Of a stretch of DNA of 64,000 nucleotides, positions 21,177 through 63,911 are shown in pieces. The notes under the pieces were generated by a model. It was not told the origin of the DNA. It saw nothing but the letters and a program-made list of their open reading frames with translations, and ran no database searches. Position numbers and translations under genes: made by a program. Source of the stretch: Henricia sp. BOLD:AAB3569 (Eukaryota > Echinodermata > Asteroidea > Spinulosida > Echinasteridae); NCBI GenBank assembly GCA_037783545.1, contig JBBELK010000003.1, positions 1,178,001-1,242,000 on the forward strand. The letters are read 5' to 3'. How positions within the stretch are numbered: the first letter of the stretch is position 1; each line of letters starts with the position of its first letter.

Positions 21177-21209
<33 letters not shown>

Positions 21210-43720: not shown

Positions 43721-43957
43721 ATGATCATATCTTGGTTTATAAACTTGGTTGTTGTAAGTATCTTCTTGAAAATAAACCAAGTTGACCGAGTGGCAATTAT
43801 AAAAAACGACCGGTAAAATTTACGAAGGGGGAGTAATCTTAATTATTAGTCAACTGTTGCATCTGCGCACTTGTTATCCACAAAAATGTGTCTATTTTGT
43901 TTCCATTGTAGGTTGCCTCATTTTGTATCGAGTTTTCTGGTGGCCAGTGCGTTGACG
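43721..43957 (+). CDS. Receptor exons 1-2: signal peptide
   Basis: Exon 43721-43753 gives MIISWFINLVV with a GTAAGT donor; exon 43912-43957 gives VASFCIEFSGGQCVD. Joined, they form a typical hydrophobic signal peptide, and exon 2 ends in phase 1 to match exon 3. A three-codon upstream ORF (ATG-CAG-TAA) ends two bases before this start. Confidence 0.72.
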
Positions 43958-46900
43958 GTGAGTGAATCTTAATTTTCATATCTGCTGTATTAATTTCAGT
44001 TCTGTTGGTGAGCACTTGATCAGCTTGTTCAGACCAAATCAGTTTTGTCTACACATGTCAAACTTTTGAATAGCCGACGACTGTCGCAAATGAAGCTAAT
44101 TCTCCGTGCGGTTTGGAATGGTCCGCAACGCATTGGATGGGAATTTGACTAAATTTGCACGATTAACAGTAAGGGATTATTATTTTGTTTATAGCAGGCC
44201 AAATTGGAAGATGTTGGCGAATTTCCTTGACTTGTAAAATAGCGAGCATACCAGAGCCTGGGTACCAGAGGCAATACAACTAGGCTATGAGAAACGTACG
44301 TGGGGGTTGTAAGCGCGGCCTGAAGTCAGGGACGCGGGCCAAACGCGATTGTTAGCTAAAGTCGTCAATAAGTCGGCCGGTTTAGATGGCAATTTCGCTA
44401 AATTTGCAGGACAAGTGTGGGATGTAGTTCTGCTTGGGTAGGCAAAATTGGAATGTGTTAGGGAATTTCCTTAGCTTCAAAAATAGCAAGCATATATAAG
44501 TCTGTTTTCAATACTGGAGAGACTTTTTTACCAAGATCATAACTCTGTGCAATGCCAGTCATATATCTTCTATCAAAACAAAAGAAATATCTTAAGACAG
44601 ATCTAAGGAGATAACTTAAGCAACAAATAGTGCAACAACATACCTTTGGGTTGAAGCTGAAACCAAATTAAAGTTGCACTGCCCGTGTTTGGGCCGATTT
44701 GGGCGTACAAATTTTTTTTAAAAGTTAAATAGGTATTTTTCTAGAATAGAAACAGTTATCAGCTTTCATTTGGTACCAAGAACGTAAAAATCCGTCAAGG
44801 ATTAAAGGAGTGTGACCAGATCACTTTTTTTTACCCATAACTCCCCGGGACTTACCTTATGGGTCATGAGATTTTTATATCATAACATCCGTTATATTTT
44901 TCTGATTACGAAACTGAAACTCCCGCGCTTCTAGGCCGCATATTTCCGAGGATATCGTCGAAAATCCACCGATTATTTGTAAACTAATTTTCCAGTATCA
45001 ACGTTTATCCACTGAAAGCCGACCCGATAGTTTTGTTCATTTTTTTACTGGAAATCGCGAATGTTTTCGGGTTTTTGGGACATGGGAGGTGTGTATGGGA
45101 GTTACTTGATAATATTGGTAAGTTACATCGAAAACTATTTTCCAGAAACTCTGGTCATGCTCCTTTAATGCCAGTCGATTAAAAACAAGAAATGATTAAA
45201 AGGCTGGCAGGTCATTTAATCGACAGGGTTATGACGTAAATGTACATGTGCGCGTACATGTGTACATTGTACACATACTATGTACATATGAGCGTACGCG
45301 CACATGTACAACATGTGAAGCACGTTTCAAGAAAAAGGCTTGTATCTCCAATTCCCGACGTCGGAAATTTAAGTTTTTGATATTTTTCGTTACAGAGACA
45401 CGTAAGCTTTCTAAATTCGTTCGCTTGTGTAAATTATTTTTTTAATCCTTTCACCGAAACACGGGCAATGCAACTTTAAGTGTGCTTTGGATCAGAATCA
45501 ATTAGACTTTTTAAGTTGAAGAGGACAGTATGAATAAGTTTTACTGGAGTCTGTTCGGAAAATGGTGAAATTGTTCTCACTTCATCGAGATTTGGTAGGC
45601 AAGATGCAAGACGCGAGACGCGAGATTGGAAACGTAACGCGAGATTTGGCAGTCAAAAGGGGAGACGCGAGTTGCGAGATGGCAGGTGCTAAACGCCATA
45701 GTATAGGCATATATTTGTTTTAATTTTTTGTGTGCAGAATCCCCCATCCCTCCTATTGTTTCACCTAAAACATGGACACCGTGGTACAATGTTGACGACC
45801 CTAGCGATGGCACAGATGATGAGACATACACGGCAGTCAAAGCGGTTAGTTTGTCTAAATATTTATTAGATGTACCCGGTAGTGAGTGCTTTTACTCATT
45901 ATTTTAAAGCCTAAGGAGCTTGTGCAGATTTCCCCTCAAAATTATATCATAAAATACCCCCTTAAAATACTATTCGTGGGAAGAAATTTGTATTTAAATC
46001 TCCAATTTGGATGTGAAAGCAAAAAAGGTTGGTGTAATCACTGCACTGATTTATGGAACCCGATAGTTTACAAAACATTGGTGTTTTTTTCGACGACATC
46101 CTTCATCAATTGATTCAAATGACTCTCATCAGCGTTTTTACTTATTGTGCTACTGATTATTTTAAAGGATCTTGTTCAGATTTTTCCAGCAAATGGATTT
46201 TGTTCTATTAAACCTAAGAATCACATAAAATACCTCCTCAAAATCCATGGGAAGAAAACAGGAAATTTGCAATCTCCAATTTGGATGTGGATAAAGCTGA
46301 AATTAAGGTTGGTGTAATCACTGCACAGCTTTATGGAACCGGATAAATTAGTTTACAAAACAGTATCCCTCAATATATATACGGATTGAGAGTGCGAAAT
46401 TTCAGAATGGTAATGAGAACAACATGAAAGATGATATGGTATCAAAATTTCAACATATGTGGAAAAAGGGGGAGGGGGAGGGGGAGGGGGAGTTCAAAAA
46501 TGTGATCTTGACACACTCCTTTAAAATTGATACTCGTGTCAATCAATTATTTACAGATGCATCCAGCAGTGTGCCCTGGTCCAAGCAATGCTGAGTGCAG
46601 GGTTCGATTCCTTCTCACTGACCACGTGACCGCTGGTCAAATTTTGGTCACTAGTTGTTCACAGACTGGGGGATTATTGTGCCGACATACTGACCAGACC
46701 AACGGAGAAGACTGTCTGGACTACGAAATAAGATTCGAGTGTCCAGCACCGGCAGGTACAATTTCCTCAACTATAGAAGGGTCATATCTGTTAATCTTAT
46801 TTTTGGCCAATGTTTCGATACCCGGTCGTGGTACCTCTCCCCTTGAACAAGCCACTCTACCATGATCCATCCTTTGGAAGGGATGTAAAGCCGTTAGTCC

Positions 46901-49900
46901 AGTGTGTTGTGTAACACACTTAAAGATCCCAGATAATTTTTTCGTGAAGAGTAAGGGGATTACCCGGTGTCTCTGGCCGTCGGCTGCCAATGGCGCCACC
47001 CACCTATGTAGCTCGATGTTTAGGTGGAAATTATTTGTAAGCTTCATATTATACAATTCAGACTGTTGGCTGCAATTTGAGGTTCATTAACCCATTAAAT
47101 TAAAATAAAATAAAAATAAAAACATTAAACTTCAATTGTATAACCAGGATAATCACTATCATTTTATCTTGGCTGGATGGTACGTCCAATTTCCTAGTTA
47201 TAGACAGAATCAAATAGCTGCCATCTTGTAGGGCAGTTTCTTTGTTCCTTAAGGATATGCATGGTTGCACATTGTGTCTGTAAGTTGTCGGGCCAATTTA
47301 AATATCAAAAATTGGGTCCAAAAGATGGCAGCTAATCATTGACTGATCTGTTCTCTATTATCAATTAAGACACCCTTCCTGAGCCTCATTTCTACTGGGA
47401 CCTGTCCACGAAGGCCTCACCAAGTTCCGAAGAGCCTCCAACCTGCGACGGTATGGTGACCTCGATCTACCCCAACGCCGGTGGTATGACAGGGTCTGTA
47501 GGGGGCGTCCTTTATGTCGACGATAGCTACGATTCCTGCGACCATCTGTGCGCTGTCAAGAACGAGGATTCAGGCTGGGTGAACTATGGATCTGCAAACG
47601 ACAGGTGCATTTCAGATCCTGCTTGCTGCACTGCAGGGTTCACCATAACCTTCTGGATGAGAAACAGATGCCCTCGGTCACAGAATGCCTTTAAATTCAT
47701 TTTTAACACTGGGGGACACACCTATAAGGCACGTGGAATCTCTCTTCATATTTCTCAAAGTTACTTTTTTTGGGTTCGAGCAGGAGCAAGCGATTCCAAA
47801 TACTGGGACATGACAATGCTCAATGCTGCCGATTTCCCTGATGATCGGTGGACTCACTACTGCTTCGCTTACGAACCATCCTTGGGAATAGAGTACTACA
47901 GGAACGGAACACTCGCATATTCCAAATATACCAAAGATGTAGACGATCCCAAAACTAGCGACTTTGATGACGTAGTTATGTTCAACCGCAACAATGACAA
48001 CACACATTTCTACAAACCTTTAGGTCACTACAGCGACTTCAAAATATTCTATAGATATTTTAACGCTACAGAAGTCAAGACAGCGTATCGGAAAGAGACA
48101 ACAGGTAATTATGAGATGTTTTTGAATATTCTAATAATTGTAAGTCTAATATTGCTTGAATATTCGGTTAATTTGTTTGAACAAGTGTACAGATTGCAAA
48201 ATGTCATATTACCTGTCCACCTCGGTTTGGACGAAGCTCCTCAGTCATGGTCAAGGTAATTGTTCTCCATGTTATTACATCTTCAGAATCAAAGCTGGTG
48301 ATCTACTATCTCAGAAAGCACAGCCACGCCGACAGCCTAGGAGTCGAGCTGGAGTGCTTAGCCAAGGCAGGCAGTCAGCCCACAATCAATTGGTATCGAT
48401 CAGATGATGGAGCATACTTCAGCTTGGTGTCCCCTTCATCACCTGACGTGGCCATCTATGAGAGCTTCCCCAACAGCTACCGAAGACGATCCATCCTGAT
48501 ATCTCGCCATCACATATTCTCTTCCGATACAATGATTGCGTGTGAGGCAGTAGATACCTATGGGGGAAGAGTGTCTAGGATGCTAACCATTCTTAAACGT
48601 AAGTAATATAATCTTTCCTAGTACTTTGCCAAAGGCGTCAGATTTATTGTAACCTTTCCGTATTTTCCCGTTTTTAAAAGATACGAGATATTGGACACCG
48701 TGGTTGAATGCGGATACCCCAGCAGATGGTGATGACATCGAAACACTGCTTCAACATCAAATGGTTCGTAATAATGCAAACTTTCTGTCACAAACTTAGA
48801 GCGGGTTTACACTGATCACGATAACCGTTTCCGAAACGCTTCAGAAACGGTATTCTTCCTATAGAAACGGCCTTAAACGGTTATTTGGTGGTGCACGCAA
48901 ATTAAAAGTAGGTTTGGATAGTCTTATACAATCCATGTTAAACTGGCTAGGGTCCTCTGCGCTGATAAAAATGATGTTTATGGTGTTTTTGCGTCACTCG
49001 TGCTGCATTTCACCGTAGCTCTGTGCACTAAATTTTAAAGGACTCAGGTAGCCAAAAAGGCGATCTACTATTTGGCTACCTGAGGCTGTGATTGGTCAAT
49101 TCCAAAATGGGCGGAGCTTACTGGATCGGTCTATTGTTAAACGTCCCCCATTTGAATACAGAAATTGCTCATCAAACGCTGTTCATGCGAAACACGCAAA
49201 AGGCAAAATAGCTCTATCCAACCACTGGGATGTTTGTTACAATCTTTATATCTTCCACAATGTTGGTGTTTCCAGGGATACAACCTTCTTTGCAAAAGCC
49301 ACACCGACATCCAGTGCCGTACAGTTCATGATGGCATCCCGTCCAATGAAACGGGCCAGATATTCAACATCAACTGTACGTTACCGGCTGGATTAGTGTG
49401 TCTCGGAGTGGAGCAAAAATTTTCAACGATCAACTCATGTTTTGATTATGAGGTTCGATATCAGTGCCCCGAACGTAAGTATCTTTTAAAAAAATATTGA
49501 TGTACATGTATTTTTTGACAAAAACAAAGTTGTCCACACTTTTACGGTTCTACAGCGTGTAGTATTTTTCAAGACCCCCTCCCTCCCCCCGAAATACGAG
49601 GCCTACTTATCAACATTTTATGTCAGCATTTGTCAACATTTTACGGTGCTTGTAAAGTCGTACGCGGCCCTCGACCCCCTTCCCCTTCCTATGCTCTGCA
49701 GACCCGTGAATATGTTAACAACTTAGGACGTCCCCTAACGAATTGACTTGAATATCCCAAAGTTTCAGTCAGTGTTTTAAGGAAACTTGGGGCGTATTCG
49801 AAACTACGTGTTGCCAGAACACGGGAACGGAGTTTCGAATGCCGAGAATAAACACGCGAACACCGTTCACAACTGAACTAGATTCTCACTTCCCACTCAG

Positions 49901-52900
49901 TGGTGAGTGGATGAAGAGTACTTGAGAACAAAGATGGCCGACCAAAATGAATGGCTACGATTGGAAGTGATTTAGCCCGAATACCTCTGGCTGCACACAT
50001 CTTATGTTTGACGGCCAGAGCAGTAGACCTTCCCCAGCGGCCGGACTTTTTTGTAGCGAATTTGCTACATACTTTGAGCGAGATTGTCCTCTGACCCAGG
50101 ACAGAGATTTCCAAAGTTAGGGTACCTATAGGAACTCATACCTTTTGCAAAACACGAAATCTTCATCCATTTGTCCAAGAGGTGACGATCATTCTAAAAG
50201 TTCCAGAAATATTGTTCCTCCATTACCGTTTTAAAAATGGCGGCGCCCTTAATTCTGGGTGTGTTGTAATTGCATTGGGCGCGTAGAGTGCCCAATGCAA
50301 TGCGCTTAAAAAAGTCCGGCTGCTTGGGAAAGTCTGTAGTGCTCTGGCCGTCGCACATAAGATGTGTGCCGCCAGAGAAATTCGAGCTAGAAGTGATTTT
50401 AGCCGGATGCCGGAAATTTACTCCCAACTTTATTAAGTAAACTACATGTTTTTGGTAGCACGTGAGAAAAACAGCGGCATAAAACAAAAAAAATATGAAT
50501 GAGATTTTGAGGCAGTATATTTCTCAACAGCCAGAGTGTTAACCACTTCCACCATTTTGAGAAAATGACGCAACCACTCGTTTGCACTTTCATGTTCGTA
50601 ACTGTCAACTCCAAAACGCCTTTCCCGAGTGCAGGGTTTCTAATAGGCCCTTATAATGTGAGGTTTGCTTGTTTTTCCTTTCTGTATCAGCGCATTACCG
50701 ATGGACACCGTGGTATGATGCAAATGATCCCGACGGGTCTATGGAGGACGAAACTCTAGACACTCACAAAACACAGGTGGGGTATGATTAGCGTTTGCAA
50801 GTTGCTACTAAAAATTACAAGTGTGACAGTTCAAGTTTAATAGAAATGTACTTTTGACGTGACGTTTTAATCCTGGAACGAGGCATAAACCCTTTAATGA
50901 GATAACCACCCCTCACGGGGATCACTTAAGATACGCCCCAAACCCCTGCCCAGCTTGCCTTAACGAATACACAGGGACTGCCGGTTTTCCCCTCTAAAGG
51001 GCTTGCTAAGCTTACGTGATAGCCAATCCCAATCAGTGAGGAACAACTGCAATACCGTGTTTCGAGACCACCAGTTGGCCTTATAACTCAATTGGTAAGG
51101 CATCTGCACATTAAGCAGAATGTCTGCGGTTCGAATCCCGGTGGAGCCAAGTTGTTTTTTACTGCATCCAGGTTTCCCAAACCCGTGGACATTTGTCCAC
51201 AAATTTATTCACCCCGGCAGTCTCTGGGTCGTAATCCCTAAAAATAATCACTTAATTATTAAACAAATAATTATGCAATACATTTCATTTTTAGGCATAT
51301 CCAGATTTATGCAGCTCTCCCGTGGGGGCTGAATGTCGTGTCAAAGGCAGCAACCAAGACTTATTCTCCAGTGGGATTGTTCCCGAGATCCCGTATCTAT
51401 GTAACGCAAATGGATTCCGATGTCAATATGCAGACAACACGGCGCCCTGTCCAGACTTCGAAGTACGCTACCAGTGCCCTGTGATAGGTAAATAATCTGA
51501 ATATTTTCAAATTTACATAAAACTATACCTGATCACCATTAAAATGAAACAACCAAACTTAGGATAAGATAAAATAATAAGGGCCTTATCGGGATTGAAA
51601 CCTGAGACCTCTGTCTCACCGGGCAGATGCTCTACCATCCTCTTGCAACAGTGCCCCTTTAACTCACTCCCTAACTCCTGCGTACAGTGGCCCTGTTGAA
51701 ACAGGCCCCATTTCGCGGTGGGACAAGTGACAGAAATTTTGTCGCCTCTGCTGGACCAATCAGGACGCGTGGGCAGTGCATTGCAGCATGATTGCAGGCA
51801 TTCAAATGTAACGCGCGCATATTGTAAACACCGTGCATGCATGTGATACATGTACTCGGTAATGCTGGCCGTTGTCTGCGTCGGCGATTGGCTGCTATTT
51901 AAAGCATACTGGGGAATCCGTTCCATTACATTCGTCAGCATGCATCCCTGTTATTAATTTGAAAAACTGCGGATTAAATTAAGATCGTCGTTTGAAAGTT
52001 TGGTAGGAATGGGACAGTCATATGAAACGGAACCCAATACAATTTCTGGAAAGTATAGAAATCGTTTCTTTTCGGCATAACATGACCGAATTGATTAAAT
52101 TATATCAAAATGACTCCGGCGTGAGTTGGCTCAAGACAACAGCCGGCTCACCCCACAGATCTGCGTGTATTTCCTCAGGGTATTGTTACATCGCTTTGCA
52201 GAGTAGAAATTCCCTGAGATCTCAGGATGTGACTCACCGGGCAGATGCTCTACCACCTGAGCTATAAGGCACAGTTGGTATACTCCCTAAGGTTTTACCT
52301 ATGGACCCAATTTTTTTGTTTCATTTCAATGGCCATCAGGCACCATACCAGATGTTGCGTTCGTTACGTTTACCTAGTTGCGCTACCATGAACACCGAGA
52401 GAAAAATTTGGTCCATAGGGAAAACCTGAGGAAGTATACCAACTGTGCCTTATAGCTCAGCTGGTAGAGCATCTGCCCGGTGAGTTAAAGGTCTCAAGTT
52501 CGAATTCCGATAAGGCCCTTACGATTTTTCTCTTATCCCAAGTTTTGTCGTTTTCTAAGGACATTTTTCTTCACAATGCTGTGACAAGTTTTAAATATGT
52601 TCTCTTAAAATTCTTTGGCTTTTACAGAACCCGCACTTCCAAGCATTGTCAGCCTCCAGTTACTGAGTTCGTCACGTGACACGGACGTACAGCTAGAATG
52701 CACTGCCAAAATCAGCCAATCTGCGATTGGCCAATTTAATCTGACGTGGGCGTCGCTTGAACGCACGCTTCCCTCCACGTATGTTCCGTTCACCGAAAAT
52801 GATGACGTAACCATCTCCGCGCTTCAGCTGTCATCAATTCTAACCATCAAGGATTTTGCCTGTAGTGATTATGCCAAGAAGACATTGGCGTGTGTTGCTC

Positions 52901-55900
52901 AGGAGGGAATTGTTTATGCACGGAAGACTGTTGACGTGAAAGTTGGTAAGATTTTTAAAATTTGCTCTACAAGTAATTGTAATAAATTTTTAATGATACT
53001 ACGTACGAAAAAAATTACTTTTGATTCTAAATTTTGAACCAATATTTTCAGATCACGTAAACAAGGCCTGACAAATTCTATTGAGCAACTTGCATCAGCT
53101 TTGTTCTAGAGAGTGTACCTTAATGAAAAAAATATATATTTCAGATTATGCAACTTTCGACTTGGCCTCCTCCATGATCCAATGTCAATACATATCATTA
53201 GTAGCAGTAAAAACAAAACACACACAATATGTGACCCGCTCTGGGGAAAAGGTAGTTTAAGTCGCGCAGTTTTCACGACCATAAGAGCATGATCCAAAAC
53301 TAGTAAACACTGGATTAAAATTTCAAAATTTCCTAAATTAGTCAAAATGATACCTCGAACAGTGAAGGAATTACAAAAATTAACAGAAAAAAATCGGCTG
53401 GGCAAACTGTGCCATCACATTTCAAAGAAATAGTTGAAAATGCATGTAAAAAATTACAGTTTTTGTCAATTTTATAAATTTTTCGTCCCTCACGCATAAA
53501 AACAACCTCTGCATAAAACTGTAAATTCAATTTCAACATGTGTGTGTCTTAACATCAGTAGCAGGTAAACAAACAGGTTCACTTTAGTTTTTGTTTGTTG
53601 TTTTGAGGAAAGGCATTATTGTCTCTTGATTTCCGTCCCTCACTGAGGGACGAAATTGGATCACGCTAATAAGTACAAATCTGTGGCGCTCATTAAAATA
53701 CCAAAACACAATGAAAATTCCAGGCGGAGCACAGATGGTTTTAATCATGCATACCTTCAATCACACAGGGGGATAAAACTGTTTGTAACAGTTTACAATC
53801 ATCTTTAAATTTTATTCGATAACATAAGACTAAACGATAAAGACAATTTTTGACTAAACGATAAAGGCAATTTTTGACTAAACAAACTTTTTCTCAACTT
53901 TCTAGATCCTCCGCCTCCAGTCTTACTGGAGTTTTGGGAGCTCAGTGGCAAGTCAAGTTCCGACCAACAAGATCCATCATCCTGCACTGCATATAACCAG
54001 CCTTTTACTGAGAACGATCACGCGACGCACGTCACAGGTCAAGTCTCGTACATACAAGCCCCGGATGTCGTCAACCACGCATGCGCTGTTCTGACTGATA
54101 TGAAAAGTGCCATCGATTTGGGGGCCTTTGATGGTCACTGTATATCATCTCCCGATAAATGCGCATGCGGAGCGACATTCGTATTGTGGGTCATGATTTT
54201 TGACCTGGGCAATATGACGTCCGATGCATATTTTCTAAGTTCCGCTGGGCAAAGTTCATCAGCCCACGGTTTTGCATTTTACCAGTCGGCTGCTGATTTG
54301 GCGTACAGATTTAGAGTAGGAACATCCGGGAAATCTTTTGATGAAGTCATAGTTTCCAACGAAGAGATTCCCAAAGAGTCTTGGTTCCATCTTGCTCTGG
54401 TGTTTGACCATGAAGAAGGTGCCAAGGTACCATACTAATTTTCTTTTTAATGCCCCAATACATTATTTGCAGTTACCCAAAATTTTACTTCACGAGTTGA
54501 CAAGAAAAAACGACTAAAAGTGTCGATAGCAAATGTAACAAACACCACGTTATTTTTGTCCAGTAAAATGGTACCTTTGTGGGAGAAATTGCCAACTGAA
54601 TGTGCTTTTTTTTAAAGTTGTCTGCAGACCACTTTTTTCCATTCATTCATACACCAAAAACATGCATGGATTTTTCAGGTTTTCTGAAGTATTACTGCAT
54701 CTATGTGGCTGAAATTTCTACAAGGCAGTTTATCAACATTATTCTTTAGTTATGTAATGCTGTTGTTCCTGTTTTTAAAAGTTTTCCAATCATGTAATCT
54801 GTGGCAAATGTGTTGGTTTTTTTCAGGTGTACATAAACGGGCAGTTGTCAGCATCATCGGGTGAATTTCAATCTGATGTTACTACGCAAGACGGGAATAC
54901 CAGTCTAGTAATTGGTGGCGCAACCTTGTTCTCGGGATTCTCAAAAGCTGCTTTCAGCGACCTGAGTGTGTACTCAGGCGCACTCACCCAGGCTCAAATC
55001 GATGACGTCATGTCATGCAACTCTTTAAGTAAGTCAAATGCGTCGCATGATCATCAATTACTCTTTTGCGTGTTTTGCACGAATAGCGTCTGGTGTTTTG
55101 ATGTACTTCCTTTCACATGCGCACTTAGTATCCACTTGACCAGACTAAATGTTTGTTGCTATGTGGTGCACGCGGCAGGTGTGAAGTACAGAATCAATAC
55201 CGTGTTCACCGTAGGAGAGAATGGCATAAAGCAACCAGACTGTTGGTTACTAGGCAATGGTGTGCACCACGTAGCAACAACAACGTAGTATCTGACTTTC
55301 TAAACTGCACCTTCATTTGAAAGTGGAGAATTCGGGGCGCCAGCCATTATCCAAATTGTACACGCAAAAGGCTAAATACTACATCGTTAATGCTGCAACA
55401 TACGTTTTTAACAATAGACCGATCCAGTAAGCTCCGCCCATTTTGGAATGAACCAATCACAGCCTCAGGTTGAGGTAACCAAAAAGTGGATCTCCATTTT
55501 GGTTACCCGAGTCCTCAAAATTTTGTGCACAGAGCTACGGCGAAATGCAGCACGAGTGACGCAAAAACACCTTAAACATCATTTTTATCTGCGCAGAGGA
55601 CCCTAGCCGGTTTAAAACGGATTGTATAAGACTATCCTAACCTACTTTTAATCCCTTCATAAATGTGTTTTTGTGTAAACTGGAAAAACTCACCAAAATT
55701 AGCTTGTTGTTTTGCTATGTTGTGCATTCACTGCGTTCTAGATGTGTGTCGAGATGTTTTTGTTCGATCGCGCGCGTTACGCGTATTGCAGGCGTGTTGT
55801 ACGTGCACGCACACGACTGGATACTTAAGTGCACATTTTGCTTTCGAGCGTGCAGTTTCTGTGTGTGTGTTTCAATACGCGCTAACCAGGGCGCAGATGC

Positions 55901-58900
55901 TGATGCAAGGCGCGGCCACGCGACTCTACTGCACGTGCCTCACATGTTGCTAGGCAATTTCTAAATGGGCGGAGCTTGATAAATCGGTTTATTAAAACAC
56001 AGGAGCTTGTCCAGATTTTTCCAGAAAATGGATTTCGTTCTAACCTAACAATCATATACCGGTAAAATACCTCCCCAAAATACTATCCATGGGAAGAAAA
56101 CAGAAAATGTGCAATCTCTAATTTGGATGTGGAAGCAAAAAGGTTGGTGTAATCATTGCACTGCTTTATGTAACCGGATAAATTAGTATACAAAACATCG
56201 GTGGTTTTTTGACGATATCCTTGAAAATATACGGATTGAGAGGTCAAAATTTCAGAATGGTAATGAGAAAAATATGAGAATATGACACCCGCAGGAAAAA
56301 TGGCGGGGTTTAAAAAGGTGATCTGGACACGCTCCTTTAATCGTTTCTGAATTTCGCATTTTATCATTAAAACAAACTTGTGCAAATCACGTGACTAAGA
56401 CAAATTTTCTTTACATTTTCAGACACTTCATTTGAGATAACAAAGGCGAAGCAATCGCCTCTGCCACCAGATAGCGCCCTAAACTTTGAATGCCAGGCAC
56501 GTGGCTTTCCCGCGCCAACAATTGAATGGGAATTTTACGATTCTGGCAGCAATATGAAAATTTCGCCAAACCCTGCATCTTCTATGGAAGTGTTTAATTT
56601 CAACGCTTCAAAATGCGTCACCAAATCTACGCTGGTTATCCATGCCAATCTCGCTGGTACCTTGGCTGCGGTGGTTTGCGTCGCAAGAAGTTCTGGACAG
56701 GAACTGACGAAAAGTTTAGAAATAATTCAGCGTACGTATACAATGGACTAGTCTAATCCTTACTTTGTGTTTATTCATTTCAATTCCTTTCATGCAAATT
56801 TCTTGTAATGCCGGGGTCCGACTATCACATAAAGCCTAGCCGTAAGGGCAACGTAGGGCTAATTTTTATTTTCACTTTTTACGACTCCGTAAAAACCTGT
56901 AAACCGTGGGCCTCGTAGTGCCACTGAATAGCCACGTACTCGCTTTGTCAGACCCTCGTAAGGCCATGTAATTTCCACGTAACGGCCACGTAACACAACG
57001 TAGTTGTCACGTATCTCCCAAGTAAGAATCATGTGACACGTATGGGCCATGTACTGCCGCGTAGTGCCCCTTGGAAACCACATATCCCCTAAGAGACACG
57101 TAAAAGTGTTGCGTGAAAATACCAAAAATTCAAAAAGGGGGTCCCCAGTCCCTTCCAGTCATTCAGCTTCTTGACCGTCAAGAAGACGGACTTAATAGAC
57201 CTGAAACGTAATGACGTCACGCAATGTTTACCGCGGTGCATTATGGGTGAAAAGTGGGGACGAAATCTCTGCATCTCCAGTTTGCATGCGTTGCATGCAT
57301 AGCGCCTAGCGTATTATGGGAACTTTACTAACTGCTTCGCTGGCAAAAAACATCAAAAACAAAGATCGTAAATTTCTAAAATGGTTCGTGTCAACTTAGT
57401 TGTGCCTGCGTGAGTTTTAAGCCCACGACGGACGCCGGAATTATGGTTTTAACATTTAAGGCCTCAAAAGGCGGCGAAAATGGCCCTGCAATAATTGTGC
57501 AAAATACCAATGCAGAGATTTCCTTTACAGAAATGCAAGCTTGCCGCAAGCTTGCATTAAGCTTGTAATTAGATTGCTGCAAGCTTATTAAGCTTGCAGT
57601 CTTGTGTGCAAGCTTGTGCACAAGCTATAGCGGCAAGCTTTACATTTTTCTAAGTTGTCCCTGCGGTATATACAGTATTAGCTTGCAAAAATTCCAATCC
57701 CGGCAAGTTTACTTTGGGGCAAGCTTGCTGGCGAGTGGTAGGTAAGCATGTAGGCGAGCTTGCGGCAAGCATGTAGGCGAGCTTGCGGCGAGCATGTAGG
57801 CGAGCTTGCGGCGAGCATGTAGGCGAGCTTGCGGCGAGCATGTAGGCGAGCTTGCGGCGAGCATGTAGGCGAGCTTGCGGCAAGCATGTAGGCGAGCTTG
57901 CGGCGAGCTTGCTGCGAGCTTGCGGCGTGCTTGCGGCGAGCTTATGGCAAGCTTATGGCAAGCTTGCTGGTGAGCAGGTAGGCAAGCTTGCCCTCATTTG
58001 CATTTTTGGAACCTTGCAAGCTTGCAGACAAGCTTGTCTGGTAGCTTGCAGCAAGCTTGGAAGATTTCTGTAAGGGTTCATCCCCACATTTCACCCATAA
58101 TGCACCACGGTAAACATTGCGTGACGTCATTATGTCATAGGTCTATTTAGATTGCTGTCCTCGGATATCCCCTGTAATTGCCACATAGTGCCACATAGTG
58201 CCACATATTACATGGCCCTCACAGGAGTAGCCCCGTAGTCGTTAAGTATGTGCCACGGCAGTGAATAGGGCCGACTGTACGTAATAACATTTTGAACCTT
58301 TTGAAATTCCCGTTCTACCACGCAATAAACGTCACTCAGAACCCGTAACTTTTACGTAGATGCCGTAACTACCACGCGATAGCCACGTCCCACCCCGCAT
58401 CACAAAAATAGTCCTACGTTGCCTTTACGGCCCAGCTTTACGTCGTAGTGTAAGCCCGGCATAACACACTGTTATGTTTTGGTACTTGCAGCAACATTTC
58501 ATGGCAACGTCAACATTTCAACGATCGGTAACATCATCCCGGGGGAAACAGTTCGACTTCTTTGTCACGTGACAGGGGATAAAGTCTACACAGTTGACTG
58601 GTACCGTAGAGAGACAACGAAAGATAGCACATCTACTGATGAACTACTTGAGTCAACAGAGGGCGCTAAATACAACGCGACGAAGATTGTAATATCACCC
58701 ACCGTTGTTGAGATGTATTTCGATATCAAATCGTTTATTGATGAAGATTATGGCATCTATGTGTGTTCTGTTAACCGTGGACTCGCTATTGGAACAGTGC
58801 ATATAGATAAAGGTACGTGTAATAGACCGTATCGAATAGCTGCCATCTTGTAGGGCAGTTTCATTGTTCCTTGAGGACGTGAATAGGACATGAATGGTAG

Positions 58901-61900
58901 CACATTTTGTGCTTATATTGTTGACCAATTTAAATGACACAAATTGCTCTACAAGATGTCAGCTATTCGATACGGTCTATATACCCTTGAAAATTTGATC
59001 AATATGTGCGAGCAAAGAAATATATTTAATTACCTTAATAAAAATACTGCCCCTATTTTAGCAACAGAAGTTTTCTAAATTCATTTACAGATGAAAGCAT
59101 CACATTTTTAAGCCCTCCATTTTTCTCATGGGTGTTGTGATTTTGATACCATATTATTTGTCATATTTTTCTCATTACCGTTTTGAAATTTCGCGTTCTC
59201 AATCCGTACATTTTTAAGGATATCGTCAAAAAACCACCAATGTTTTGTAAACTAATTTATTCAGTTCCATAAAACAGTGCAGTAATTACACCAACCTTTT
59301 TGCTTGTACATCCAAATTGGAGATTGCAAATTTCCCGTTTTCTTCCCATGGAGAGTAGTTTTTGCGGAAGGATTTTATATGATTGTTTGGTTAAAACGGA
59401 ATCCATTTTCTGGAACAAAAATCTGAACAGGCTCATTTAAATATAATTGTGGCAGTTTGCCAGTGGTCGATTTAATTTTTCATTCATCCATCTTTGTCAT
59501 ACCCATGCACTTCGAGTCACATTTGTCTAGAAATGACCAATAGACCAGTAAGCTCCCATTTAAAAATTGCCTACCAACATGCCACACATGTGAGGCACGT
59601 GTGCAGTAGAGTCGCGTGGCCGTGCCGTGCATCAGCGTCTGCGCCCTGGTCAGCGCAGATTGAAACACGCACACGCACACAGAAACTGCATGCTCGAAAG
59701 CAAAATGTGCACTTAAGTATCCGGTCGTGTGCGTGTACGTACAACACGCCTGCAATACGCGTAACGCACGCGATCGAACAAAAACACCTTGACACACATC
59801 TAGAACGCATTGAATGTACAACATAGCAAAACGACAAGCTAATTTTGGTGAGTTTTTCCCGTTTACACAAAAACACATTTATGAAGGGATTAAAAAGTAG
59901 GTTTTGATAGTCTCATACAATCCGTTTTAAACCGGCTAGGGTCCTCTGCGCTGATAACAAATTAAGTGGTGTTTTTGCGTCACTCGTGCAGCATTTCACC
60001 GTAGCTCTGTGTACAAAATTTTGAGGACTCGGTTAACCAAAATGGAGATCCACTTTTTGGTTACCTCAACCTGAGGCTGTGATTGGTCAATTCCAAATTG
60101 GGCGGAGCTTACTGGATCAGTCTATTAAGTAAGTTACTAAGCAAATTACAATGCTACAAATTTTCTGTTTTAACCATTTCCGGATGAACGTAAAGTGTAA
60201 GAAATATAAAGTCCATCTGTATATAATTTTTTCTGCTAGATTTGAAACAAACTACAGTAAACCCAACTGCATCAAACGTTATCCAGACGAACCACGATAC
60301 AACGTCATATTCAACAAGTGTGGAACCCACGCGTCCCACTCCGAGTACATCAAACATTATCCAGACGAACCACGGTACCACGTCATATTCAACAAGTGTT
60401 GAACCGATGCATCCCACTCCGAGTACATATCAGCAAGATAAAGACACTACCATATATACTACAAATTCTGAAAGTTCGACAGTTAGTACGTCAGATGAGG
60501 GCAACCAGATGCGAAGTACTACAGACATGTTTGAAAAGACGAGTGAAAATCTGGTGACGCAAAAAATATCGGAGCATGAAACGCCACAGTCATCTGCATA
60601 CCAGAACACTGCGCAAACTCCGATTCGCGTAACCTCTGACTCGACAACAGAGCGCAATGGGGAGATGATCATGACGCCATCAACTACAGACTCTGAAAAG
60701 AACTATGTTGTACAAGCTACTGGTAGGTTTACTGATACCGTAAGTTTACTCTTAAAGGTAGTACACATGATTGGTATCTCGAAGAATCAAAATGTTCACA
60801 GATTTACACATAACTTACACGATATAAACATGATGACGGCAGAAAACTTCCCCTGTAATGGTTTTGTCTGAAATACTATAGTCTTTGAGAAATGAGCAAA
60901 ACAATTATTTTTCGTCTTGCGAGACGTAAATTCAATTCGCCCCAAAACCATTTCGCCCAAGTGCCATTTTGCTCCCGAACCACTTCGCCCAAGTGCCATT
61001 TCACCCCAAATCACTTTGTCCAAACACTACCTCGCCCAAATGCCACTTCGCCCCAAAACCACTTCGTGCACAGGCCGTGGATCAGGGCGAAATGACTGTA
61101 AACCATTTTTTGACTGTTTTTTCAAAAGTTAGACTAAGTACGGAGCTGATTTTTGCTCAGGTTGGTTTTAATCATGCATATCTTCAATCACACAGGGGAT
61201 AAAACTATTTGTAAAGTTTACTAATCATGTGTGCTATCTTTAAGATGCCGTGTTTATATTTTGATAAAAATGTCAAATTCATTTCAACTAGCCTTTTGCG
61301 TGTACCATTTGTATAATGGCTAGCACCCCAAATTCTCCACTTTCAAATAGAGGTGCAGTTTAGAAAGTCACATACTATGCTGTTGTTGCTACATGGTGCA
61401 CGCCATTGCCTAGCAACCAACAGTCTTATTACTTTATGCCATTCTCCCCTATTGTATTGATTCTGTAGGGCTACTTCACACTTGCTGCATGCATCTCATA
61501 GCAGCAAAATTTAGTCTGGTCAAGTAGATACTGAGGAAGTACGTCAGTGCACCAGCCGATATTCATGTGAAATATGCAAAAGACGTGCTATCTTTAAAAA
61601 TATTCCTACGTAGTTTGAAAATTTTGGATTGCTTGATTGTTTCAGATGGGTTAACAACGCCCGGGGTCGAGGTTACAATGTCCGGTGACAAAGGCGATAA
61701 GCAAGACCAGTCTACGATAATACGAAAAAGTGAGTATTCGTGACGATTTTGTATTTGTTTGAGGTTTACTGTAGTCTCATACCCAGACCTGCTGGGGATG
61801 CTCGATCAACAGGTCTGGGCAATTTGCTGAAAGGCGCATCGCTGATTTGTTGACACTAGTCTGAACGCCAGACTCGTTCACAAAATGTGTCCGACAGTTA

Positions 61901-63911
61901 TAAAGCCATCTACGAGAGTACGCACACTGCTATAGACCGTGTAAGTCTTGTTTCGGGTCACACTTCCGGAGACCAGTCAGGGAATTCTGTCAATAGGGTT
62001 TTAACGTTGTGACAATCTTCTTTCAATTATCACCTTACCGTACCGCGTTTGTAAGCGCCCATAACACCAATAAATGAAAAAGGCACCTTAAAATCTATCG
62101 ATTCAATAAATAAAATGAAGAAAAGGTGCCCAGACCTGTTGGGCAAGCATCCTCGGCAGGTCCATCCTGAGATCTCAGGGAAATTCCACTCTGCTAAGTG
62201 ACGTTACAATGCCCTGAGGAAATCCACGCAAATCTGCAAAGTAAGGCGGCTGTTGCATCTAGCAAACACACGCCCGAGTCATTTTGATGTAATTTAATCA
62301 ATTTGGTCATGTTATGCCGAAAAGAAACGATTTCTATACTTTCCAGAAATTGTATTGAGTTCTGTTCCCTATGACTGTCCCATTCTTACCAACATTTCTG
62401 CCGACGATCTTATTTACTCCGCAGTTTTTCAAATTAATAACAGTGATGCATGCTGACCAACATGAATGGAACAGATTCCCCCATGCTTTAAATAGCAGCC
62501 AATCACCGACACGGACAACGGCCAGCATTACCGAGTACATGTATCACATGCATGCATGGTGTTTACAATCTGCAGGCGTTACATTTGAATGCCTGCAATG
62601 CACTGCCAAGCGTCCTGATTGGTCCAGAGAGGCGACAAGATTTCTGTCGCTTGTTCCCCAGCGAAATGGGGCCGGTTTCAACAGGGCCTTGGTACGCACG
62701 AGTAGGGGAGTGCGTTAAAGGGGCACTGTTGCAAGAGGCCTGGATATACGATACACTGGAAATACGACCACTTTTAACATTTTATCAATACAATCTTGTA
62801 CGATCGCAGGTAATCTGACATGGTTGATTCCCTTTGGTGTTGGCTTGGCTCTTCTTGGCATTCCTGCAGTCATCGTCTGCTACTTGATTTGCAAAAAGAA
62901 GTAAGACGGTCATTTTCTATGCTTTCACCCGTCGCACAAAGACATCTGTTTTGACGTATACATGGCGAGTCAGAAGAAAAAAAAACGTTCTTTTTGTTTC
63001 CAATTTTTTTTTTTTCAAAAACTTGAATATATAATTTCTGTGACAATGCAGTCATGTTGATATGGTTACTGAGCACGTCTCGTGATTAAATCATTGATTT
63101 ATGGTATTGCATAACAAAGATAGATGCAATTCTTTCCTGGGTTCTGAAATAACTATCAACACATTTTGTGCCTAGCTAATAAAGAAAACTGACATTGACA
63201 ACCATTGCACTATTTCAAGTCTGTTACGATTCAGGAGCTAAGAAATCGCATAACTGTTGAAGTACAGGCATTACGAAGGACACGGCAGTGTTGTAATCGA
63301 GTCACCAATATCGAGTCCGAGTCCAAGTCTTGAGTCATTAGCCTCGAGTCCGAGTCTCGAGTCACTTTCCTTGAGTCCGAGTCCGAGTCACTTGTTAGCC
63401 AAAATGAAACTGAATCTGCTGGGTTTCGTACACACAATATGTGAAATGATGATGTGCTTGTGCGCTCCTTGCCGGCCTGGCGGGGCAGTGTACATATTCT
63501 CGCATTGTACTGTGTTTTTCACCCAAGAATCTTGCATTAAGTGTGCGAATATATATATTTTTTCTTTTTTTGAAATATGTAACTCGTAAGTTACGAGCCA
63601 CCATGTTCAAGTCCGAGTCATCGGATGAATGACGAGACTCTCAATGGATCATTTTGTGATTGATGTCTTTCAGAGATAACTCCATCCATGGCCTAGACAT
63701 GCTAATGGCGACTGCCAAGGCACCATTTCCTAAGACCAAGGCCAACAAATCTTATCACGGAGAAGAGCCCAGGGCTCCGCCCCGGATGACGCATGTGCTG
63801 CCGCCCCAAATCACACCCGTGCCGACACCCACACACGCCGGGATTCAAATGATTGAGGTTCACGAATTCAACAAACCGTCGGAATCTTCCGAGCTTACTG
63901 AGGACATTTAG
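43721..63911 (+). CDS. Large modular type I receptor: WxxW, LamG and Ig domains (complete, 19 exons, 1519 aa)
   Basis: Exons: 43721-43753, 43912-43957, 45738-45844, 46557-46755, 47370-48104, 48287-48598, 48681-48763, 49276-49474, 50691-50776, 51295-51487, 52628-52945, 53906-54426, 54827-55028, 56423-56731, 58492-58812, 60240-60722, 61646-61729, 62810-62900, 63674-63911. Total 4560 nt, in frame throughout. Domains by residue: signal peptide 1-24; Mucin2_WxxW (CysD) 36-127; LamG/ConA-like 130-372; Ig 375-476; WxxW 481-570; WxxW 576-663; Ig 667-769; LamG 772-1010; Ig 1014-1113; Ig 1116-1220; Ser/Thr stalk 1222-1409; TM 1415-1436; tail 1440-1519. All modules are phase 1-1. CysD domains occur in gel mucins and CILP, where they mediate protein interaction. 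Function unknown; a surface adhesion or recognition role is inference. I do not recognise the architecture. The weakest part is the 11-codon first exon. Confidence 0.9.
43960..44490. other. Receptor intron 2, unassigned part
   Basis: No exon-like frame or repeat recognised. Confidence 0.35.
44490..44655 (+). repeat. Fragment of the 25031-25465 foldback
   Basis: TTTTCAATACTGGAGAGACT to GTGCAACAACATACCTT matches one arm of that element. Confidence 0.7.
44666..45481. repeat. TTAA-ended foldback with nested MITE A copy 5
   Basis: TTAAAGTTGCACTGCCCGTG at left and CACGGGCAATGCAACTTTAA at right. The A copy at 44802-45168 sits inside. 45240-45312 is an additional GTACATGT-rich hairpin with 17-bp perfect arms. 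Confidence 0.8.
44802..45168 (+). repeat. MITE family A, copy 5
   Basis: TTAA-bounded, near identical to copies 1-3. Confidence 0.93.
45738..46755 (+). CDS. Receptor exons 3-4: WxxW (CysD) domain 1
   Basis: Exon 45738-45844 encodes KTWTPWYNVDDPSDGTDDET and a phase-0 donor (GTTAGT). Exon 46557-46755 encodes HPAVCPGP, AECRV, GLLCRHTDQT and CLDYEIRFECP. The WxxW start, the acidic DDxET and the final C-x-DYE-x-RF-x-C are hallmarks of the Mucin2_WxxW family. WxxW is a C-mannosylation consensus. Confidence 0.9.
45903..46525 (+). repeat. Two consecutive MITE family B copies
   Basis: 45903-46132 (3' part missing) and 46163-46525 (to CACACTCCTTTAA) fill the intron inside WxxW domain 1 and end 31 bases before exon 46557. 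The second contains a GGGGGA repeat. Confidence 0.8.
46808..47120 (+). repeat. SINE, 5'-truncated
   Basis: Starts within the B box (TTTCGATACCCGG) and carries the full body plus a TTAAAATAAAATAAAA tail, as at 18578-18985. Confidence 0.8.
47200..47345. repeat. Foldback family K copy
   Basis: AATAGCTGCCATCTTGTAGGG recurs at 58830. The right part AAGATGGCAGCTA pairs back. It ends about 25 bases before the LamG1 exon. Confidence 0.7.
47370..48104 (+). CDS. Receptor exon 5: LamG / concanavalin-like domain 1
   Basis: A 245-codon phase 1-1 exon. It starts DTLPEPHFYWDLS and contains FTITFWMRNRC, DDRWTHYCFAYEP, EYYRNGTLAYSKY and GHYSDFKIFYR. The FTITFW, WTHYCF, YRNG and DFKIF elements mark the ConA-like jelly roll. 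Nine cysteines suggest extra disulphides. Confidence 0.85.
48287..48598 (+). CDS. Receptor exon 6: Ig domain 1
   Basis: A 104-codon phase 1-1 exon with the Cys (VELECLAK), Trp (TINWYRS) and Cys (TMIACEAVD) triad of an Ig fold. The DxGxYxC motif before the second Cys is not kept. Confidence 0.82.
48681..49474 (+). CDS. Receptor exons 7-8: WxxW (CysD) domain 2
   Basis: Exon 48681-48763: RYWTPWLNADTPADGDDIET, phase-0 donor. Exon 49276-49474: YNLLCKSHTDIQCRTV, GLVCLGVEQ and SCFDYEVRYQCPE. The intron position and phase, and the 199-base second exon, match domain 1. The donor GTTCGT is non-consensus after GT. Confidence 0.87.
48900..49136 (-). repeat. MITE family F, half copy
   Basis: Matches the 59890-60126 half of F, ending GGGCGGAGCTTACTGGATCG. 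Confidence 0.75.
49790..50560. repeat. Foldback-type region
   Basis: CACACATCTTATG...CGGCCAGAGC near 49993-50030 is answered by GCTCTGGCCG...ACATAAGATGTGTG near 50341-50372, with further pairing of CCGGACTTTTTT and AAAAAAGTCCGG. The ends are unclear. Confidence 0.6.
50691..51487 (+). CDS. Receptor exons 9-10: WxxW (CysD) domain 3
   Basis: Exon 50691-50776: RWTPWYDANDPDGSMEDET, phase-0 donor GTGGGG. Exon 51295-51487: YPDLCSSPVGAECRVKG, FRCQYADNTAPC and PDFEVRYQCPVI. It follows domain 2 directly, so domains 2 and 3 are a tandem pair. Confidence 0.88.
51068..51155 (+). repeat. tRNA-like SINE head
   Basis: CTTATAACTCAATTGGTAAG and GCGGTTCGAATCCCGG fit A and B boxes, and a CTGC/GCAG anticodon stem is visible. 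The residue before the would-be anticodon is C, not T, so it is not a working tRNA gene. Confidence 0.6.
51536..52580. repeat. Inverted SINE D copies, one split by element family E
   Basis: A reverse SINE D (51536-51635, resuming at 52230) is interrupted by E copy 2 (51636-52229). A forward SINE D follows at 52425-52580, sharing the leader GGTCCATAGGGAAAACC in inverted form. Confidence 0.8.
51636..52229 (-). repeat. Element family E, copy 2 (reverse)
   Basis: CATCC...GGATG ends as in copy 1. It is flanked directly by 24-bp direct repeats (51612-51635 and 52230-52253) that differ at one base. Confidence 0.85.
52628..52945 (+). CDS. Receptor exon 11: Ig domain 2
   Basis: A 106-codon phase 1-1 exon: VQLECTAKIS, FNLTWASLE, KKTLACVAQEG and VYARKTVDVKV. 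It shows Cys-Trp-Cys with a closing beta strand. Confidence 0.82.
53041..53200 (+). repeat. Fragment of the 19483-20212 foldback family
   Basis: TTTTCAGATCACGTAAACAA, AAGGCCTGACAAATT and TTGCATCAGCT align in order. Confidence 0.65.
53210..53730. other. Receptor intron stretch with no recognised feature
   Basis: No coding frame or matched repeat, apart from inverted CCGTCCCTCA and TGAGGGACG near 53635-53650. A family C fragment follows at 53733-53808. Confidence 0.4.
53906..55028 (+). CDS. Receptor exons 12-13: LamG / concanavalin-like domain 2
   Basis: Exon 53906-54426 contains LLEFWELSGKSS, GATFVLWVMIFDLG and ESWFHLALVFDHEEGAK. Exon 54827-55028 continues VYINGQLSASS, TSLVIGGATLFSGFS, AAFSDLSVYSGALTQAQID. 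WFHLALVFD, VYINGQ and FSDLSVYSGALT are classic LamG/pentraxin elements. Unlike domain 1, it is split by a phase-0 intron, which holds a repeat copy. Confidence 0.9.
54440..54825 (+). repeat. Repeat family M copy in the LamG2 intron
   Basis: Fills the whole intron between exons 53906-54426 and 54827-55028, ending at the polypyrimidine tract of the acceptor. Confidence 0.75.
55133..55392 (+). repeat. Repeat family L copy
   Basis: TTGACCAGACTAAATGTTTG through CGGGGCGCCAGCCATT. Confidence 0.7.
55412..55994 (+). repeat. MITE family F copy
   Basis: AATAGACCGATCCAGTAAGC at left, its imperfect complement (GGAGCTTGATAAATCGGTTT) at right; ~580 bp. Confidence 0.8.
56000..56341 (+). repeat. MITE family B copy
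   Basis: AGGAGCTTGTCCAGATTTTT to GATCTGGACACGCTCCTTTAA. It ends 82 bases before the Ig3 exon. Confidence 0.85.
56423..56731 (+). CDS. Receptor exon 14: Ig domain 3
   Basis: A 103-codon phase 1-1 exon: PPDSALNFECQARGFPAPTI, EWEFYD, STLVIHANLAGTLAAVVCVA. FPAPTIEW is typical of I-set Ig domains. Confidence 0.87.
56810..58464. repeat. Nested foldback stack with AAGCTT minisatellite core
   Basis: Outer ends ATGCCGGGGTCCGACTATCA and the complement near 58464. The second level is 57197-58143 (arms with AATGACGTCACGCAATGTTT). The third level is about 57521-58074 (arms CCTTTACAGAAAT and ATTTCTGTAAGG). The core is a ~23-bp tandem, AGGCGAGCTTGCGGCGAGCA, seven or so units at 57740-57910. Confidence 0.85.
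58492..58812 (+). CDS. Receptor exon 15: Ig domain 4
   Basis: A 107-codon phase 1-1 exon: IIPGETVRLLCHVTGDK, TVDWYRRE, FIDEDYGIYVCSVN. It has a canonical Cys, a Trp and DYGIYVC, and is the best preserved Ig fold in the protein. Confidence 0.88.
58822..58982. repeat. Foldback family K copy
   Basis: ATAGACCGTATCGAATAGCTG at left and the exact complement at right. It begins nine bases after the Ig4 exon donor. Confidence 0.85.
59085..59441 (-). repeat. MITE family B copy, reverse
   Basis: CATTTTTAAGCCCTCC to TCTGAACAGGCTCATTTAA; the full interior is present. Confidence 0.8.
59539..60126 (-). repeat. MITE family F copy, reverse
   Basis: The same element as 55412-55994 in the opposite direction, ending GGCGGAGCTTACTGGATCAG. 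Confidence 0.8.
60240..60722 (+). CDS. Receptor exon 16: Ser/Thr-rich stalk with duplicated 26-residue unit
   Basis: A 161-codon phase 1-1 exon with no cysteine, dominated by Thr, Ser, Gln and Asn. Two consecutive 26-residue units begin SNVIQTNHDTTSYSTSVEP and SNIIQTNHGTTSYSTSVEP. It is likely an O-glycosylated stalk. Confidence 0.85.
60753..61247. repeat. MITE family C copy
   Basis: TTAAAGGTAGTACACATGATT and AATCATGTGTGCTATCTTTAA ends; CCACTTCGCCC-type minisatellite inside. Confidence 0.85.
61297..61575 (-). repeat. Repeat family L copy, reverse
   Basis: AGCCTTTTGCGTGTACC through ATTTAGTCTGGTCAAGTAG is the reverse of 55133-55392. Confidence 0.7.
61646..61729 (+). CDS. Receptor exon 17: short linker before the membrane
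   Basis: A 28-codon phase 1-1 exon (DGLTTPGVEVTMSG, then DKGDKQDQSTIIRK). It has AG/GT borders and keeps frame with both neighbours. As a symmetric exon it could be skipped without a frameshift. Confidence 0.7.
61785..62738. repeat. Family N foldback followed by element E copy 3
   Basis: CCCAGACCTGCTGGGGATGC and CCCAGACCTGTTGGGCAAGC are related N ends at 61785 and 62130. E copy 3 (CATCCTGAGATCTCAGG ... GTTGCAAGAGG) follows at 62163-62738 and ends 71 bases before the TM exon. Confidence 0.7.
62810..63911 (+). CDS. Receptor exons 18-19: TM segment and cytoplasmic tail
   Basis: Exon 62810-62900 encodes LIPFGVGLALLGIPAVIVCY, then LICKK, a membrane helix with a basic stop-transfer. Exon 63674-63911 encodes a 79-residue tail with one Tyr (NKSYHGEE), a Pro-rich run (RAPPRMTHVLPPQITPVPTP) and the end SSELTEDI, followed by TAG. 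Confidence 0.88.
63298..63400 (+). repeat. GAGTCCGAGTC minisatellite
   Basis: A short unit based on GAGTCCGAGTC repeats about eight times with variation. An inverted CAAGTCCGAGTCATC recurs at 63608. It lies in the last intron of the receptor. Confidence 0.8.

Follow-up and report, generated by a model that had tools for sequence, protein, structure and literature searches.

The question raised by the stretch of DNA analysed here, a window of 64,000 nucleotides from the starfish Henricia sp., is whether WxxW modules of the mucin type, which are known best as components of secreted gels, can also be built into a receptor anchored in the membrane. The original prediction had joined nineteen exons without a frame break, and the join proved exact: the 19 exons of gene A (43721-63911, forward strand) connect in frame without a stop to a coding sequence of 4560 nt, i.e. 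1519 residues plus stop codon, and all 18 introns have GT-AG borders. The predicted domain order, coordinates and topology were likewise confirmed by Pfam and hydropathy: a signal peptide is followed by WxxW-LamG-Ig-WxxW-WxxW-Ig-LamG-Ig-Ig, a Ser/Thr stalk, one transmembrane (TM) helix and a short tail (Table 1). The N-terminus is hydrophobic and signal-like, and hydropathy yields a single TM stretch at residues ~1413-1437. Gene A is thus a predicted type I membrane protein; its exon junctions, its expression as one transcript and its surface location are likewise predictions from sequence. The stalk comprises 189 residues (1222-1410), of which 66 are Ser or Thr (26 Ser, 40 Thr) and 11 are Pro. 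A tyrosine signalling motif was looked for in the tail and none is present; since the tail holds one tyrosine (1468) besides that at the TM border (1435), tyrosine signalling is not indicated for gene A.

Table 1. Parts of gene A and the tract shared with gene B (positions in the window, all on the + strand).
Feature	Position	Description	Evidence
Exons 1-2	43721-43753, 43912-43957	start, signal peptide, mature chain start (..QCVDESPIPP..)	exon join, hydropathy
WxxW module 1	45738-45844, 46557-46755	two exons; residues ~36-127	PF13330 70.1 bits
LamG module 1	47370-48104	single exon	PF13385 52.6 bits
Ig module 1	48287-48598	single phase-1 exon	Ig_3 18.4 bits, under cut-off 30
WxxW module 2	48681-48763, 49276-49474	two exons	PF13330 70.6 bits; 6tm6 Mucin-2, E 1.2e-7
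WxxW module 3	50691-50776, 51295-51487	two exons	PF13330 44.8 bits
Ig-like module 2	52628-52945	single phase-1 exon	no Pfam match; Cys pair 689/753 and position
LamG module 2	53906-54426, 54827-55028	two exons	PF13385 67.8 bits
Ig module 3	56423-56731	single exon	Ig_3 24.9 bits, E 3e-5, under cut-off 30
Ig module 4	58492-58812	single exon	Ig_3 31.6, I-set 27.1 bits, both over cut-offs
Ser/Thr-rich stalk	60240-60722, 61646-61729	two exons	composition
TM exon	62810-62900	TM helix, then CKKK; 100% identical in second copy	hydropathy up to 2.43
Cytoplasmic tail and stop	63674-63911		exon join
A-B tract	47368-48606	exon 5, intron 5, exon 6	95.1% identical over 1243 columns, same contig (blastn)

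Each module was scanned alone against Pfam-A, with cut-offs of 22.4 (PF13330), 27.6 (PF13385) and 30 (Ig_3) bits. These were passed by all three WxxW modules, in agreement with their earlier assignment to PF13330, by both LamG modules (Laminin_G_3) and by one of the four Ig modules (Ig4). Among solved structures, the best match of WxxW1 is Mucin-5AC (8ov0, E 3.4e-10). For WxxW3, a Mucin-5B structure appears only at E 0.053, ranking behind a snake-venom enzyme at chance level (0.033), and the WxxW3 exon is absent (E > 0.001) from an exon-wise genome search that lists the exons of WxxW1 and WxxW2. LamG2 is closest to an extracellular arabinanase (E 3.2e-5), followed by pentraxin PTX3 (E 0.038); LamG1 has no convincing match, none of the PDB sequences falling below E 0.06. 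The Ig1 motif NSYRRRS is present in all five aligned rows.

Gene A sits on contig C3, and a search of the genome (740.7 Mb) revealed a second copy, A', on contig C141. The two contigs are collinear, introns included, in blocks of ~83-98% identity interrupted by insertions. In the second copy, 19 of 19 exons retain their splice borders and the frame stays open, exons 1 and 2 are both 100% identical, and the exon-16 indels between the two copies (6, 3, 3 and 3 nt) preserve the frame. The proteins agree in 1414 of 1519 residues (93%). With 87.5 synonymous changes on 1022 sites and 109.5 non-synonymous changes on 3523 sites, dN/dS over the coding sequence is 0.35 (Nei-Gojobori), which indicates purifying selection. 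The ratio is 0.25 for LamG1; TM helix and tail, with 2.5 vs 2.5 changes, hold too few to show constraint. Among the best 31 of 261 candidates in the same genome, the tail matches at C3 and C141 only. The conserved borders and the dN/dS ratio together lead us to reject a chance joining of exons. Positive selection across gene A is also unsupported, given the overall ratio and the fact that in no domain does dN significantly exceed dS; the smallest p value (0.145) is that of WxxW2, with 0 synonymous vs 8 non-synonymous changes. In a PITH-domain gene downstream, a stretch of 65 residues is matched only on C3 and C141, at 100% identity. Because of this identical stretch and the collinearity of the contigs, we favour C3 and C141 being haplotypes rather than paralogues or a segmental duplication.

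Relatives of gene A were sought among 5.8 billion sequences by a protein search that needs shared 5-mers and similar length; this found four, and a profile search raised the number to seven. All seven are from starfish (Acanthaster, Patiria and Asterias), are named uncharacterized at NCBI, and align to gene A over the N-terminal WxxW-LamG-Ig region. Three WxxW modules are present in five of the seven, and one in Asterias P0006 and P0007, the latter continuing after Ig1 into its own Thr-rich stretch. The QC-x-x-ESP start of gene A is common to P0002, P0004 and P0005. The closest counterparts in architecture, Acanthaster planci LOC110978922 (P0001; 59% identity over 61% of the query) and Patiria miniata LOC119728099 (P0005; 60% over 49%), carry three WxxW modules, LamG and Ig in the order of gene A. 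P0001 continues into a second LamG, as gene A does; the P0005 model ends before it, and Ig2 places P0005 with gene A (96/95). Unlike gene A, both models (926 and 806 aa, respectively) end before stalk, TM helix and tail. As to whether related genomes show the same order, the answer is thus divided: it recurs in five of the seven as far as the three WxxW modules are concerned, and in P0001 into the second LamG, but stalk, TM helix and tail are matched by none of the seven. The single-pass end consequently rests on one genome, in two copies. With residues 772-1519 as query, no public relative was found among 7987 candidates scored.

No membrane receptor mixing WxxW, LamG and Ig domains in this way was known to the original prediction. 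The order itself holds for gene A, but gene A is not a one-off: seven starfish proteins share its N-terminal region, and a further Henricia gene, gene C, has WxxW, LamG and Ig exons before GPS and 7tm_2, which makes gene A a member of an unnamed family. Among the open-licence titles and abstract openings listed, none describes a receptor carrying WxxW modules. We regard gene A as a predicted modular adhesion receptor, unusual both in its set of domains and in the way it evolves.

This mode of evolution becomes apparent from a tandem paralogue, gene B, which lies downstream of gene A just past the window (C3:1248399-1282771). Gene B begins with the first six domains of gene A (WxxW-LamG-Ig-WxxW-WxxW-Ig), as do Acanthaster LOC110979373 (P0002) and Patiria LOC119728100 (P0003); in all three, unlike in gene A, an F5/8C domain replaces the second LamG and more Ig modules follow. 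The F5/8C domain of gene B was assigned by homology to P0002; taken singly, the last F5/8C exon scores 15.1 bits, under the cut-off of 28.2. Gene B probably continues, because its last Ig exon bears a GTAAGT donor; no 3' exons were found before or beyond the PITH gene among plus-strand ORFs of at least 55 aa up to C3:1312000 or by hydropathy up to C3:1288500.

Genes A and B are most alike in LamG1 and Ig1 together with the intron between them (Table 1). For intron 5, A-B identity is 96.1% and A-A' identity 96.7%; it is the sole intron to align collinearly between genes A and B (pieces of at least 60 columns), other intron matches being scattered and repeat-like. At exon 10, in WxxW3, the tract 51289-51479 is 95.3% identical over 191 columns, exons 3 and 4 are ~90% identical, and exons 7-9 match only in pieces at 80-84%. 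In a tree of LamG1 and Ig1 (11 rows), A and B group by species (own species 100/100, Acanthaster 97/96, Patiria 99/98, all starred), and the segments of P0002 and P0003 pair with the gene A of their own species on short branches. A tree constrained to unite the A rows is worse by 489 log units (AU p 8.4e-5); this test used 9 rows of the 11, without P0006 and P0007, and its clade was named after the tree had been seen. The tree of Ig2 splits A from B instead (92/92, not starred). With half of WxxW3 added to Ig2, the Acanthaster and Patiria sequences sort by gene (100/99 and 83/88) and A and B of Henricia fall together weakly (78/87); the A and B versions of exon 10 are themselves 95% identical, so this exon may have been converted too. 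The neighbouring genes A and B thus appear to copy their head by inter-locus gene conversion.

A recent, separate duplication giving rise to A and B in each species is disfavoured, because the two genes are told apart in several species by LamG2 vs F5/8C and by Ig2, and because no intron other than intron 5 is collinear; for Ig2, an A+B clade is rejected in Acanthaster (AU p 1.7e-6), yet in Henricia it is not rejected (AU p 0.072). The paired immune receptors CD300A and CD300C are described as paralogues with the same pattern, i.e. extracellular heads homogenised by gene conversion, which is thought to preserve the ligand-binding site (PMC12447643). The ectodomains of the starfish genes differ in being much larger, and A and B diverge from each other in domain order after the sixth domain. 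A comparison of LamG1 of gene B between C3 and C141 gave dN 0.036 and dS 0.037 (20.5 vs 5.5 changes), a ratio near 1, unlike that of gene A, from too few changes to interpret.

The explanation we prefer, with about even confidence, is that gene A encodes a membrane-anchored adhesion or recognition receptor whose ligand-binding head is shared with gene B. A multi-domain head (WxxW-LamG-Ig, WxxW-WxxW-Ig, LamG-Ig-Ig) would be held off the membrane by the stalk, which is probably O-glycosylated. The N-terminal part, LamG1-Ig1 and probably WxxW1, would bind the ligand, presumably a glycoprotein of mucus or matrix, with the WxxW modules serving as a docking scaffold and the tail signalling or anchoring. 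Gene conversion would keep the heads of A and B alike, so that both probably see the same ligand, and they would pass it to different C-terminal ends in the manner of paired immune receptors. A docking function would accord with descriptions of the CysD fold as a stable scaffold open to evolving new interaction capabilities (PMC9169620, PMC11912381).

The modules of gene A share the PF13330 family and the WxxW motif with the CysD domains of the gel-forming mucins MUC2, MUC5AC and MUC5B, and the six cysteines of WxxW1 and WxxW2 align with mucin cysteines. Each of the three modules has six cysteines, as opposed to the five disulfides, hence ten cysteines, of mucin CysD (PMC11912381). For this reason the label CysD, under which they had been predicted, applies to all three in the sense of PF13330 membership but not in the strict mucin sense: they are not canonical CysD domains. 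They also differ in sitting between Ig and LamG modules. Gel-forming mucins have VWD assemblies and a C-terminal cystine knot (PMC9169620). A Pfam scan of gene A at E up to 1 gave no VWD or cystine-knot family, which sets it apart from that class. Proteins of the CILP family combine a TSP1 domain with WxxW and Ig and are secreted; gene A differs from them in its TM helix and in that TSP1_2 is only sub-threshold (10.5 bits, cut-off 27). CysD domains are reported to occur first in Bilateria, and together with PTS regions in Deuterostomia (PMC9169620), and WxxW is also described as a C-mannosylation sequon (PMC10154233).

All 26 candidates for PF13330 in the genome were scored, giving 21 matches (four each on C3 and C141, five each on C171 and C266, and one each on C127, C471 and C164). 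By inspection, the WxxW modules on C127 and at the loci inspected on C171 and C266 (L001, L003, L004, L008) contain an additional CC and are flanked by stretches of Ser/Thr, as in gel-forming mucins. The loci C171:1494890-1503344 and C266:638090-645550 are near-duplicates of each other, both with Ser/Thr repeats and WxxW modules of the CC type, and probably represent one gel-forming mucin in two haplotypes.

That the same genome has mucin-type loci (C127, C171, C266), whose WxxW modules are rich in Cys and accompanied by Ser/Thr runs, would fit a gene A that is a structural, membrane-tethered anchor for mucus or matrix, its WxxW modules docking on gel-forming mucins and its tail merely anchoring, a role that is possible although we think it rather unlikely. 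It would agree with the matches of WxxW1 and WxxW2 to mucin CysD structures and with a tail free of tyrosine motifs, and a precedent is found in MUC2, where CysD1 is described as docking onto the neighbouring bead (PMC9169620). However, the gene A modules do not have the extra cysteines of mucin CysD, and LamG1-Ig1 is the tract of highest A-B identity over its length, which speaks for a module that confers specificity and against a generic anchor.

A different origin may be read from gene C, which lies on C164 (2258853-2247095, minus strand), distant from and unlinked to gene A. Its exons encode, in order, LamG (56.9 bits), WxxW (41.5), Ig (35.5), a Ser/Thr stretch, GPS (35.2, cut-off 22.5) and 7tm_2 (125.1, cut-off 20.6, scored on three joined exon pieces). 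Read from these exons in order on one strand, gene C is an adhesion-GPCR-type receptor, with LamG, WxxW and Ig upstream of GPS and 7tm_2; GAIN was not recognised, and two Ig-like exons have no Pfam match. A weak second WxxW lies upstream (2260460-2260290; tblastn with P0002, E 8.5e-4). Between the LamG of gene C and the LamG2 module of gene A there is a match at 27.9% (E 4.9e-17). Asterias P0004, which has an A/B-type head, ends in a segment resembling the region before the GPS of gene C (score 159; maximum 65 in 1000 shuffles) and read as GAIN-like; the P0004 tail gave no match in a search of the Henricia genome at E 0.001, and no Pfam family reached its cut-off there.

The order of the gene C exons and the end of P0004 would fit a derived position of gene A with respect to a family of adhesion-GPCR type, in which gene A shares descent with gene C and has lost the GPS and seven-TM end. 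We regard such descent as improbable: the gene A protein has a single TM helix and, by Pfam, lacks a GPS, and is thus no adhesion GPCR; none of the 48 GPS matches in the genome lies on C3 or C141; and gene C is known from exons alone, two of its Ig-like exons lacking a Pfam match. An artefactual fusion of two genes, with foreign stalk, TM and tail exons, is very improbable, for although no public protein spans the junction (7987 candidates scored), exons 14-18 each start in phase 1 on one strand with the frame open throughout, and all borders are kept in the second copy.

Under the preferred reading of gene A as a recognition receptor, one may go a step further and imagine, as a rather doubtful extension, an undescribed recognition system of starfish in which WxxW/LamG/Ig heads are mounted on different ends: single-pass in A, an Ig array in B, and adhesion-GPCR-type in C and perhaps in Asterias P0004. 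Gene conversion would keep the A and B heads alike within each species; paired receptors would let cells probe mucus or matrix, and the related gene C would be a G-protein-coupled mucus sensor. In one and the same animal, WxxW modules occur in a receptor predicted to be single-pass and next to exons for GPS and seven TM helices. This suggests that the module known from secreted gels could let cells directly sense mucus or hold on to it. Adjacent genes whose heads are homogenised species by species also allow the idea of paired receptors to be tested outside vertebrates.

Several other features of the window were noted. Inside intron 14 of gene A (57700-57960), a short tandem repeat, its unit ~23 bases long, is visible by eye. 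An ORF at 35761-36177 (+) resembles a reverse-transcriptase fragment by eye, with no Pfam match for the 75 of its 138 residues that were scanned. On the opposite strand, a major facilitator transporter ORF is found at 31394-32518 (-; MFS_1, 70.4 bits). At 18968-22364 (+), a CUB ORF (46.4 bits) is followed by a Ser/Thr-rich ORF and then by an ORF with several tyrosine motifs (..YDPGYQTVDAEDPMYLSI..); these, read as separate ORFs, possibly belong to another single-pass receptor with a signalling tail.
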